This document shows positions 256 to 4,107 of a DNA stretch of 64,000 nucleotides, one piece after another (position 1 is the first letter of the stretch; each line of letters starts with the position of its first letter). The stretch spans positions 1 through 64,000 of the forward strand of contig CACIOP010000005.1 of the NCBI GenBank assembly GCA_902588315.1, read 5' to 3'. Source of the DNA: an uncultured Pelagibacteraceae bacterium (lineage in GTDB: Bacteria; Pseudomonadota; Alphaproteobacteria; Pelagibacterales; Pelagibacteraceae). The notes below the pieces were generated by a model. That model ran no database searches. It saw only the letters and a program-made list of their open reading frames with translations, and was not told the DNA's origin. Made by a program: the position numbers and the translations under genes.

Positions 256-1239
256 ATGAAAGAAAGACCTTATCATCATTTGCCTGATGGTACTTTCAGG
301 AATCCAAAAGGATCCCCGGTAATAATATCTAGGTCAGGAAAATTTTCTTATAGAATTTTCAGTAAATTGAGAAAAAAAGTTGATTTAACTTATCCAAAAG
401 AACATGTTATTGAAAAACAAAAAGTATTAGCTGATTTAGAAAAATATAAAGACAATGATTATATTGCTTGGATAGGTCATGCAACATATCTTATAAAATT
501 AGGTGCAACTACAATTATAACAGATCCTGTATTTTCAAAGAATGCTGGACCACTAATCTTTGGTCCAAAAAGATTTACTAATCCTGCAATAAAATTAAAT
601 GAGATACCTAAAACGGATATATTTTTACTCACTCATAATCATTACGATCATCAGGACATGTCAACAATTAGAAATTTTCCTTTTAAAAGTGCTAAAGTAT
701 TAGCACCACTAAATCTTGGTAAATATTTTAAAGGATATAAAGATGTAAATGAAATGGATTGGTATGATCAAATAATTATAAATGAGGATTTGAAAATTTC
801 TTTACTTCCTGCAGTTCATTGGTCAAAGAGAAGTTTAACAGACACTAATAAAACTTTGTGGGGTAATTTTTTAATAGAACATAAAAATAAAAAAATTTTA
901 TTTGCATGTGACACTGGATATGGGAAAGTCTACAAAGAACTAGGTGAAAAATATGGTCCTATAGATCTGACAATGATTAATATTGGGGCTTATAATTTCA
1001 AACCAATGTTTGATAAAACTATTTATCATACTACACCAGAAGAAGCCCTGAATGTTGCACAAGACCTAAAAAGTAAAAAAGTGTTAGGGATGCATTGGGG
1101 AACGTTTGTTTTGTCATTAGAACCGATTATGGAACCCCCAATTAGATTTAAAAATAGTGCTGAAAAATATGGTTTTAATAGAGAAGATGCAATTATTTTT
1201 AAAATTGGAGAAGTTAGTCCTCTAGATAAATTATTATAG
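256..1239 (+). CDS. MBL-fold metal-dependent hydrolase (NAPE-PLD / UlaG-like)
   Basis: A 327-residue metallo-beta-lactamase-fold protein. The metal-binding set is visible: HNHYDH (H127, H129, D131, H132), H188, D219 in ACDTGYG, and H280 in GMHWGTF. The N-terminal WIGHATYLIKL and TDPVF stretches are typical of the branch containing N-acylphosphatidylethanolamine phospholipase D and UlaG-like lactonases. No signal peptide is seen, so it is probably cytosolic. It starts one base after the sugar dehydrogenase stop, and its last 6 bases overlap the convergent transporter gene. Family is certain from motifs; substrate (phospholipid, lactone or other phosphodiester) is not. Confidence 0.85.
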   Translation: MKERPYHHLPDGTFRNPKGSPVIISRSGKFSYRIFSKLRKKVDLTYPKEHVIEKQKVLADLEKYKDNDYIAWIGHATYLIKLGATTIITDPVFSKNAGPLIFGPKRFTNPAIKLNEIPKTDIFLLTHNHYDHQDMSTIRNFPFKSAKVLAPLNLGKYFKGYKDVNEMDWYDQIIINEDLKISLLPAVHWSKRSLTDTNKTLWGNFLIEHKNKKILFACDTGYGKVYKELGEKYGPIDLTMINIGAYNFKPMFDKTIYHTTPEEALNVAQDLKSKKVLGMHWGTFVLSLEPIMEPPIRFKNSAEKYGFNREDAIIFKIGEVSPLDKLL

Positions 1240-2160
1240 AGTTAAATACTTAATAGCAAAAAATATAGTCCCTATAGAAGCAATAGTAGAGACAAAAATT
1301 GCTTTAATTATATTTTCGGGACTTACATTATAAGCGGCACATAAAACTATAGAAGTAACTCCACAAGGCGCAACACTCACAAAGAAAGCACCTGGTATTT
1401 CAGCTGGCAATCCTGCATTAAAAAACACTAATCCAATTAACAATAAAATTATTGGGGAAATAACTAATTTTAAAACTGAAATAGATACGGATAATTTGTT
1501 AATTACATTTTTAGTATAAAATGAAAGAGTTATGCCAATTGCAAACAATCCAACTGGAGAAACACATGCTGCAAGTTTAGACAAAGTGTATTCAATCGGT
1601 GTTTGATCAATATTAAAATTTAATAATAAAAATAATAGACCTATAATTATTGAAAGTATAAATGGGTTTAAAAATAAATTTTTAATAAAATTAAATAAAT
1701 TTACATTTTTTTTTGTAGAAAATTCGAGAAAAAAAGCAATTACAGATAATAAAATTATCCCATCCATTAATATGATACTTGCAACTTGTGTAATTACATT
1801 TTGTTGAAAATAAATTTCTGTTATTGGTAAGAGCAAAGTTACATGGTTTGATAATGCAACTGTTAAAGCCCAAATAATTGACTCTGGGATTGATCTTTTA
1901 AAATATTTTGAAGTAATTAAGTAGGCGATAATTCCACATATCGACTGCATAATTAAATAAGAGAAAATTTGTTTGAAATCTACTTGTCCAATTTCATTTT
2001 GTGCTATTAGCTTAATTATCAATGCCGGAACTGCAATATAGAACAAGAAAAGATTTAAAATTTTAGCATGACTAAGGTCTAAGACCTTCAACTTACCAAA
2101 AACAAAACCTAAAAAAGTAATAAATATAAATGGAGTTAGTCCTAAAAAAATTGTGAACAT
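1234..2160 (-). CDS. AEC family transporter
   Basis: A 308-residue very hydrophobic protein with about ten membrane segments in two halves, consistent with the auxin efflux carrier / malonate permease family (MleP, MdcF). The conserved FGKLKVLD near residue 25 and the AIGITLSFY-like and APCGVTSIVL stretches in the second half fit this family. Members carry small carboxylates across the inner membrane. It is the last gene of a minus-strand run and sits 3 bases after a TauD-type dioxygenase and two genes after a haloacid dehalogenase-like hydrolase, which suggests an organic acid or halo-acid substrate. That link is inferred from context only. Confidence 0.85.
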   Translation of the reverse strand: MFTIFLGLTPFIFITFLGFVFGKLKVLDLSHAKILNLFLFYIAVPALIIKLIAQNEIGQVDFKQIFSYLIMQSICGIIAYLITSKYFKRSIPESIIWALTVALSNHVTLLLPITEIYFQQNVITQVASIILMDGIILLSVIAFFLEFSTKKNVNLFNFIKNLFLNPFILSIIIGLLFLLLNFNIDQTPIEYTLSKLAACVSPVGLFAIGITLSFYTKNVINKLSVSISVLKLVISPIILLLIGLVFFNAGLPAEIPGAFFVSVAPCGVTSIVLCAAYNVSPENIIKAIFVSTIASIGTIFFAIKYLTL

Positions 2161-2163
2161 AAA

Positions 2164-2955
2164 TTATTTGATTGTTATTCTATGCATTATTCTATTTCCT
2201 TTGAAAGCTGTTGCTTGATGAAGCATAGATCTATTATCCCATATAGCCAATTGATTTTTTTCCCAAGGCAATGAAAATTGAAACTTCTTCTTAATTTGAT
2301 GGTTAAATAAAAATTTTTTTAACTTTTCTTGATTTTTTATCTTTGAGCTAAAACCAACAAAATGTCCTGGACTGCAATAAATAGAATAATTTGTGCTGAT
2401 TTTCCTAATTATTTTATGTGAAGATTTAAGCTCTTTAATTTTTTTTCCTTTTTCTTTTACTCTTTCTTTTGTTGTAACCGAGATTGGACCCTCAGAGGAA
2501 TATTTACCTTTAATATTTTTAAATTTTCTTTTTATTGGACTTGGTAATTCTTTATAAGCAAGATATTGAGAACAAAATTCTGTATTAGCTTTTCCTTTTT
2601 TAGGCACAAGTTTAGAAAGTAACATTGTGTATCTTGGAGGATTTTTTGTATAAATCGAGTCAGTATGAAATTGTTCACCAAAACTTGGTCCTTTGTCAGT
2701 TAATTTTCTTTGCACCACTGTAATTTGAGGAAATTTTTTATTTAAACCTTTCAATCTTGGATAGTTGGCTAAATTTCCAAAATATTTTGCAAACTTAATG
2801 AAAAGTTTAGAAGTTAATTTTTGTCTCTTAAAATATAACATTCCATATTTATTCAGTGCTTTTTTGATTTTTGAAATATCTTTATTTGAAATATCTTTTA
2901 AATTTACAATTATTTCTGCTCCAATATTTTTTTTATTTGGAATTATTTTAAACAT
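2164..2955 (-). CDS. TauD/TfdA family 2-oxoglutarate-dependent dioxygenase
   Basis: A 263-residue Fe(II)/2-oxoglutarate dioxygenase. The iron facial triad is visible: H97 and D99 in FHTDS, and H246 in WDNRSMLH. The 2-oxoglutarate Arg corresponds to R255 in GNRIMHR, and R259 matches the position that binds the substrate acid group in TauD. The family hydroxylates taurine, 2,4-D, carnitine precursors and related compounds. Its start overlaps the upstream hydrolase gene by 8 bases and the transporter follows 3 bases later, so the three probably form one transcript. The residue set argues for an active enzyme; substrate is unknown. Confidence 0.85.
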   Translation of the reverse strand: MFKIIPNKKNIGAEIIVNLKDISNKDISKIKKALNKYGMLYFKRQKLTSKLFIKFAKYFGNLANYPRLKGLNKKFPQITVVQRKLTDKGPSFGEQFHTDSIYTKNPPRYTMLLSKLVPKKGKANTEFCSQYLAYKELPSPIKRKFKNIKGKYSSEGPISVTTKERVKEKGKKIKELKSSHKIIRKISTNYSIYCSPGHFVGFSSKIKNQEKLKKFLFNHQIKKKFQFSLPWEKNQLAIWDNRSMLHQATAFKGNRIMHRITIK

Positions 2956-3820
2956 TCTTTAGAAAAAACTTTTTTAGGTGATTTATAGTTTGTTTAGGAC
3001 TTTCCTCAGGAATGAAATGATCTGAATTAATTTCTGCACCATAGATTTTTTTATTTGTATATTTTTGCCAAATTTTAATCGAATTAAATTGCTTTCCAAC
3101 TACTCCTTTTTTTCCCCACAAAACTTGGATAGGAATATTTAATTTTTTATTTCTATCTTTTTTATCGTGCTCTAAGTCTATAGTCGCCGAAGCTCTATAA
3201 TCTTCACATGTTGCATGAATTCTTTTATTTTGTTTAAATGCTCTAAAATATTCATCTTCAACTCTTCCAATCGCACGTTTAGATGACCTATTAAACCGAC
3301 TATGTAGCCATCTTTTAGGGTCTGCCATTATCATTTTCTCCGGCAAAGGTGCAGGCTGTATTAAATAAAACCAATGAAAATATCCTTTTGCAAATTTCAT
3401 ATCTGTATGTTCGTACATATCAAGAGTTGGACAAATATCTAATACACTTAAAGCCATAATTTTATTTCTATAATCTCTTGCCATTCTGTGTGCAACTCTT
3501 CCGCCCCTGTCATGTCCAGCAACAAAAAATTTTTTAAAATTTAATTTATTCATCAACTGAACCATATCTTTTGCCATTTCTCTTTTAGAATAATTTTTAT
3601 GATTATTTCCACCAGGCAAAACCAAACTGTCCCCATATCCTCTTAGATCTGCAACTATTACTGTGAAATATTTACTAAGTTCAGGGGCAGTCTTGTGCCA
3701 CATTACATGTGATTGTGGATATCCGTGAAGTAGCAATAATGGAGGACCATTACCTTTAAATCGACAAAATATTTTACCCTTGTCTACCTTAACAAATTTT
3801 TTTTTAAAACCATTAAACAT
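2948..3820 (-). CDS. Alpha/beta hydrolase, fluoroacetate (haloacetate) dehalogenase-like
   Basis: A 290-residue alpha/beta hydrolase. The nucleophile elbow GHDRGGR carries Asp (D104) instead of Ser, as in haloalkane and haloacetate dehalogenases and epoxide hydrolases. R105 and R108 match the carboxylate-binding arginines of fluoroacetate dehalogenase. D128 (LDICP) and H268 (SDHF) complete a triad, and H149-W150 plus a Tyr in CEDYRA (Y208) match that enzyme's halide pocket. The oxyanion motif is HGYPQ near residue 32. Family knowledge: these enzymes hydrolyse haloacetates to glycolate. An epoxide hydrolase would normally carry lid tyrosines instead. It overlaps the downstream dioxygenase by 8 bases. 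No signal peptide. Confidence 0.82.
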   Translation of the reverse strand: MFNGFKKKFVKVDKGKIFCRFKGNGPPLLLLHGYPQSHVMWHKTAPELSKYFTVIVADLRGYGDSLVLPGGNNHKNYSKREMAKDMVQLMNKLNFKKFFVAGHDRGGRVAHRMARDYRNKIMALSVLDICPTLDMYEHTDMKFAKGYFHWFYLIQPAPLPEKMIMADPKRWLHSRFNRSSKRAIGRVEDEYFRAFKQNKRIHATCEDYRASATIDLEHDKKDRNKKLNIPIQVLWGKKGVVGKQFNSIKIWQKYTNKKIYGAEINSDHFIPEESPKQTINHLKKFFLKNV

Positions 3821-3831
3821 GATTAAACTAT

Positions 3832-4107
3832 TTAGTTATTTAATAGTTTATTTTTTGCCTTTTCAAATTCCTCTTGAGAAATAATTCCTTTTTCTTTTAA
3901 ATCATTCAATTTAGTAAGTTCATCACTTAAATTGCTACTTTGTTCACCAGAAGTCTCGCTTGTCTCTCCGCCCTCACTTTCTGCTTCCTCTTTCTCAGCT
4001 CTATTAGCTTCCTTAGACTTAAAACCATTCATAATTGCCATTCCACCTAAGTATAAAACATAAGCCATAATAGGAATAACCAATCCAAAAAAAATTATTT
4101 TTTCCAT
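3832..4107 (-). CDS. Small membrane protein with C-terminal SHOCT domain
   Basis: A 91-residue protein with one N-terminal membrane segment (residues about 4-26), an acidic Ser/Glu-rich linker, and a C-terminal helix-turn-helix of the SHOCT type (LNDLKEKGIISQEEFEKAKNKLL). SHOCT modules are short oligomerisation motifs often found at the ends of membrane or secreted proteins; no enzymatic activity is expected. It lies 11 bases upstream of the dehalogenase-like gene and 3 bases after another small membrane protein on the same strand. The domain call is good; the role is unknown. Confidence 0.7.
   Translation of the reverse strand: MEKIIFFGLVIPIMAYVLYLGGMAIMNGFKSKEANRAEKEEAESEGGETSETSGEQSSNLSDELTKLNDLKEKGIISQEEFEKAKNKLLNN

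Follow-up and report, generated by a model that had tools for sequence, protein, structure and literature searches.

Among the fluoroacetate dehalogenases (FAcDs), NOS0089, DAR3835 and RPA1163 defluorinate fluoroacetate, and the Burkholderia enzyme FA1 carries the active-site residues D104, R105, R108, D128, H149, W150, Y212 and H271, of which Trp150 is needed for cleavage of the C–F bond and not of the C–Cl bond (PMC11022551). The signature DRXXRXXXR distinguishes FAcDs from epoxide hydrolases (PMC7429986). Selections for defluorination in the haloacetate dehalogenase H-1 almost exclusively retained Trp180, and smaller residues at the corresponding W185 of RPA1163 let in bulkier acids, a result that is quoted in the same paper (PMC12955510). 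Bromo- and iodoacetate occur naturally in coastal seawater, and an unrelated dehalogenase protects a marine flavobacterium against both (PMC8490876). The literature that we searched contained no description of a SAR11 haloacetate dehalogenase, nor of a module that combines an FAcD with a TauD-type dioxygenase and an AEC permease. Such a module is found in the window analysed here, a stretch of 64,000 nucleotides from an uncultured Pelagibacteraceae bacterium, with the following genes and neighbours.

256 to 1239, plus strand: metallo-beta-lactamase-fold hydrolase, the convergent downstream neighbour, at the edge of the variable site
1234 to 2160, minus strand: AEC (auxin efflux carrier/Mem_trans) permease, 308 aa, 3 nt past the dioxygenase gene
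2164 to 2955, minus strand: TauD/TfdA-type Fe(II)/2-oxoglutarate dioxygenase, 263 aa, closest solved relative RdpA (6d0o, 1.5e-22)
2948 to 3820, minus strand: FAcD-family alpha/beta hydrolase, 290 aa, ATG start
3832 to 4107, minus strand: small SHOCT-domain membrane protein, 91 aa, the upstream neighbour, which marks the chromosomal site

An earlier note on this DNA had placed the hydrolase at 2948-3820, giving no strand, and had recognised in it eight residues of fluoroacetate dehalogenase, most of them at the same numbers. The coordinates are exact and the coding strand is the minus strand, which forms an open frame of 290 codons for amino acids; a plus-strand reading of the same stretch was rejected, being riddled with stops and non-coding. 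All eight residues (D104, R105, R108, D128, H149, W150, Y208 and H268) stand where the note had put them, and they align with D110, R111, R114, D134, H155, W156, Y219 and H280 of RPA1163. FA1 has six of the eight residues at the same numbers and the other two three to four positions further on, in agreement with the claim. Alignment to RPA1163 makes D104 the nucleophile of an Asp-His-Asp triad with D128 and H268, R105 and R108 the carboxylate-binding arginines, and H149, W150 and Y208 the predicted leaving-group or halide pocket. A third arginine, R112, completes the DRXXRXXXR signature, so that the hydrolase carries the very arginines whose absence would mark an epoxide hydrolase, while H149 and Y208 alone do not set it apart from Cif-like enzymes. 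Within its SAR11 clade the gene shows dN/dS values of 0.04-0.08, and this strong purifying selection indicates that the protein is in use. A phage or viral origin was rejected, as no matches were found in phage records or viral contigs. No NCBIfam equivalog scored above its cut-off for the protein.

Similarity to the FAcDs, judged from sequence, is far above chance: phmmer gave E-values of 1.3e-88 to NOS0089/Alr0039 (3qyj), 6.7e-79 to D4B (9c9f), 3.2e-75 to DAR3835 (8sdc) and 3.3e-75 to RPA1163 (3r3u). Identities are 47% to NOS0089, 46% to D4B, 42% to both DAR3835 and RPA1163 and 40% to DehH1, with RPA1163 and FA1 together spanning 39-42%. We built an AlphaFold2 model of the hydrolase on an alignment of 45 natural sequences (mean pLDDT 96.6, pTM 0.94). 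The predicted fold gave TM scores of 0.96 to 3qyj, 9c9f and 8sdc and 0.97 to FA1 (1y37), and its best 50 solved matches all belong to the FAcD family. Nearly all of these are titled, or known as, fluoroacetate dehalogenases, the exception being 4nvr, titled ‘putative acyltransferase’. At the level of the fold, the comparison did not go against the reading of the earlier note. As firmly as sequence and model allow, the hydrolase is a genuine member of the fluoroacetate/haloacetate dehalogenase family (EC 3.8.1.3 type), and it is likely to be competent on haloacetates in vitro.

The residue set itself turned out to be less informative about substrate. In an alignment of 121 relatives, most of them picked by their similarity to the hydrolase, 117 carry all eight residues; the set thus marks the family and not the substrate, and its coincidence in our protein is what is expected of an FAcD. 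The remaining four relatives, all plasmid-borne, have Trp at the H149 position. What the note had said of family and chemistry is upheld, since sequence, modelled fold and motif group the hydrolase with assayed fluoroacetate and haloacetate dehalogenases; its proposal of a fluoroacetate or haloacetate role in seawater does not follow from a set that is not substrate-specific. A phylogenetic tree places the main SAR11 hydrolases in a single clade (100/100 support) on a long branch, with more distant SAR11 copies from other genera (L028, L029 and L031) outside it.

The set had also been called complete. This is true of the eight residues named, but a ninth pocket residue, the pocket or entrance Trp (W185 of RPA1163, W180 of H-1), is deleted or replaced in all 25 SAR11 members of the window clade. 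In the same 25 sequences the catalytic His is preceded by Asp (D267 in the hydrolase), a position occupied by Gly in most relatives. Both Trp and Gly persist in two SAR11 sisters, L083 and L084 (77-78% identity), whose genes occupy the same chromosomal site, and a further SAR11 genus (g5) keeps the Trp and mostly has Lys or Arg at the Gly position. Across the 121 relatives, Trp is found at the W185-equivalent site in 75 and the others vary, D4B having Arg; the pocket Trp, as far as aligned residues can tell, is common in the family, not universal, and thus no strict requirement. We rejected its absence as proof that defluorination is lost, because D4B, itself titled a fluoroacetate dehalogenase, also lacks it; the loss calls for caution but does not refute this activity. 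The presence of Trp150 keeps defluorination possible. Nevertheless, loss of the pocket Trp together with Asp267 may alter the substrate.

The dioxygenase and hydrolase genes share 8 nt (ATGTTTAA, 2955-2948), the start codon of the former overlapping the stop codon of the latter. To place this arrangement in context we compared 48 SAR11 loci from public genomes. The two genes overlap, by 8 or 23 nt, in 31 of the 48, at two chromosomal sites: one beside FolD/SHOCT, as in the window, and one beside genes resembling GMP reductase and dimethylglycine dehydrogenase. The trio of hydrolase, TauD-type and AEC genes was likewise found again at two chromosomal sites. Within a family sample of 197 genomes, a close TauD orthologue was present in each of the 18 hydrolase-bearing genomes of the genus, and co-occurrence over the 45 listed genus genomes gave a Fisher p of 3e-7, which is optimistic given that the genomes are related and the list partial. 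Strict dependence of the TauD-type gene on the FAcD was rejected: it occurs without the hydrolase at the same site in three genomes (G063, G140 and G143), so the link is not obligatory, and the hydrolase stands alone in L083. What a specialist might not expect is that SAR11 repeatedly couples an FAcD with an AEC permease and a TauD-type enzyme.

The stretch that corresponds to 256-4107 of the window, from the SHOCT gene to the metallo-beta-lactamase-fold gene, varies within the genus and holds the hydrolase with TauD and AEC, the hydrolase alone or TauD alone. The SHOCT gene is also kept in relatives that are missing the hydrolase gene, the dioxygenase gene or both. A tartrate dehydrogenase gene (TIGR02089) and a GMP reductase-like gene are divergent to the hydrolase in 26 of the 48 SAR11 loci (for example L043:4385-5458 and L041:8946-10013). 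In two genomes without the hydrolase, G035 and G170, tartrate dehydrogenase lies directly before TauD.

We also searched for genes that would handle the products of dehalogenation. FluC was found in none of 15 hydrolase-bearing genomes of the genus, and a set of 18 such genomes yielded neither CLC channels nor the fluoride riboswitch, these genomes being a few percent incomplete and the source genome 83% complete. FluC was detected in other SAR11 genera, which shows that the FluC test works. Fluoride export and sensing thus lend no support to physiological defluorination in the hydrolase-bearing genus genomes examined. Nearly every hydrolase-bearing genome tested encodes a glycolate oxidase-type FAD protein, so that most of them can use glycolate, the product expected from a haloacetate. 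In several members of the window clade a gene of this type lies about 23 kb from the hydrolase (G156 C3, 142571 and 165352; G176 C1, 17799 and 40570). A protein of this type was found neither in the 83%-complete source genome, which showed no PF02913 glycolate oxidase, nor in G186.

Taking these results together, we lean, with some reserve, towards a SAR11-specific FAcD branch that dehalogenates, by an SN2 mechanism, naturally occurring haloacetates (bromo-, iodo- or chloroacetate) or similar 2-substituted acids and works with the TauD-type enzyme and the AEC permease. In such a scheme the permease would take up small alpha-substituted acids, from which the hydrolase and its translationally coupled dioxygenase would strip the substituents. 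Arg105 and Arg108 would hold a small 2-substituted carboxylate whose alpha carbon comes under SN2 attack from Asp104, with His149, Trp150 and Tyr208 accepting the leaving group; water activated by His268 and Asp128 would then cut the ester on Asp104 to give a 2-hydroxy acid, which for a haloacetate is glycolate. The most likely physiological substrate is one of these three natural haloacetates or a close analogue, and bromo- and iodoacetate are more plausible halide substrates than fluoroacetate. RdpA, the closest solved relative of the dioxygenase, cuts 2-oxyacid ethers by hydroxylation. If similar chemistry holds for the TauD-type enzyme, both enzymes could free C2-C3 acids from alpha-substituted ones. 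Against the favoured explanation, some SAR11 genomes place the hydrolase beside tartrate dehydrogenase, an enzyme with no evident part in haloacetate use, and the glycolate oxidase is missing from the 83%-complete source genome. More tentatively, it is possible that the coupled dioxygenase and hydrolase form an AEC-fed two-enzyme module that strips different alpha-substituents from small carboxylates in the open ocean, or that makes and opens an epoxy-dicarboxylate, and that this is an undescribed route for small substituted acids in a bacterial group that ranks among the most abundant.

The tartrate dehydrogenase neighbourhood leads to the main rival, in which the protein would hydrolyse epoxides that carry a carboxylate group, perhaps in the manner of a trans-epoxysuccinate hydrolase: the Asp would open a ring held by the two Arg to give a tartrate-like diol, the nearby tartrate dehydrogenase of related SAR11 would use this diol, and the epoxide might be formed or processed by the TauD-type dioxygenase. 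We consider this unlikely. The active-site residues of trans-epoxysuccinate hydrolase are nearly those of the FAcDs, which counts in its favour, as does a tartrate dehydrogenase scoring above the TIGR02089 cut-off at most a few genes from the FAcD in the 26 loci mentioned above. A fungal Fe/2OG oxygenase is moreover known to convert fumarate to trans-epoxysuccinate (PMC12568646). In Ruegeria conchae, on a plasmid (L063:5840-7810), tartrate dehydrogenase directly precedes a family member; this protein, however, belongs to a different subfamily, in which Trp replaces the pocket His (H149W). The window clade itself is mostly without tartrate dehydrogenase, the SAR11 hydrolase lies beside or divergent from that gene and not in one operon with it in the loci examined, and the near solved matches with assayed activity are dehalogenases. 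We rejected the linkage as proof of an epoxysuccinate pathway on the grounds of the window clade and of the H149W substitution in the Ruegeria pair, and also because most genomes that lack the FAcD have TauD and tartrate dehydrogenase at separate places. A shift of function is a still weaker candidate, which we regard as rather improbable: loss of the Trp, the Gly to Asp change before the catalytic His and a short lid would suit a larger 2-substituted acid, an ester or a lactone, the dehalogenase residues being kept by descent. It would account for both changes in all 25 clade members where sister clades keep Trp and mostly Gly, it fits the effect of smaller residues at W185 as quoted for RPA1163 (PMC12955510), and the same clade mostly lacks tartrate dehydrogenase; yet D4B carries Arg at the aligned Trp position, and other relatives vary there too.

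That the enzyme's physiological task in seawater is to hydrolyse fluoroacetate or another fluorinated acid, the full view taken in the earlier note, seems to us very unlikely. The predicted fluoride pocket is complete, including the Trp150 that FA1 needs for the C–F bond, and the relatives NOS0089, DAR3835 and RPA1163 act on fluoroacetate (PMC11022551); the enzyme may turn this compound over in vitro. The equivalent of H-1 Trp180, kept in defluorination selections (PMC12955510), is nevertheless lost in the clade, and instead of fluoride genes the hydrolase has a dioxygenase of the TauD type and an AEC permease as its coupled partners. Fluoroacetate is known chiefly as a product of terrestrial plants. 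Since the gene shares a small operon with those of an oxygenase and a transporter, and the cell has no recognisable fluoride export, its true role probably lies elsewhere than in fluoroacetate, which is unlikely as a physiological substrate.

Hydrolysis of haloacetates or related acids by SAR11, if it takes place, would draw a marine group of very high abundance into organohalogen turnover, for which we found no SAR11 description in the literature searched. The conserved FAcD-TauD-AEC module yields a concrete, testable prediction, namely a small-acid substrate, and the well-known eight-residue set should be read as a mark of the family and not of fluoroacetate use.

In comparison with the described systems, the hydrolase is a further member of a known enzyme family. 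DehH1, the haloacetate dehalogenase H-1 encoded on plasmid pUO1, shares 40% identity and the eight residues with it. The dehH1 gene lies on a conjugative plasmid with crcB about 1.2 kb away, whereas the SAR11 gene is chromosomal and no fluoride exporter was found in the genus genomes that bear it. On pUO1 (L055:11276-13690) an IS481 transposase separates dehH1 from the annotated fluoride exporter crcB. Another plasmid-borne gene, of the H149W type, stands on the conjugative Klebsiella pneumoniae plasmid pRHB39-C10_3 (L065:3956-7813) in one row with a LysR regulator and with genes resembling leuC/leuD and fumarylacetoacetate hydrolase; it has matches on 61 Klebsiella plasmid records, several of them from cattle or milk. 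Cif-like and other alpha/beta epoxide hydrolases have the fold and the Asp nucleophile in common with the hydrolase, and in the Cif-like enzymes His also replaces one lid tyrosine, but these proteins are without the DRXXRXXXR arginines and their sequence match is far weaker. RPA1163 of Rhodopseudomonas palustris and FAc-DEX FA1 of Burkholderia share the triad, the two carboxylate arginines and the His/Trp/Tyr halide pocket; they differ in being only 39-42% identical and, for RPA1163, in W185, which is deleted or replaced in the window clade. D4B of Delftia acidovorans (46% identity, TM 0.96, eight residues) resembles the hydrolase even in the absence of the pocket Trp, where it has Arg, and departs from it in the Gly before the catalytic His and in a longer lid in the Trp region. 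The closest match, NOS0089/Alr0039 of Nostoc, a fluoroacetate and difluoroacetate dehalogenase, combines 47% identity, a TM score of 0.96 and the eight residues with the pocket Trp and the Gly before the catalytic His, both of which it keeps, unlike the SAR11 enzyme.
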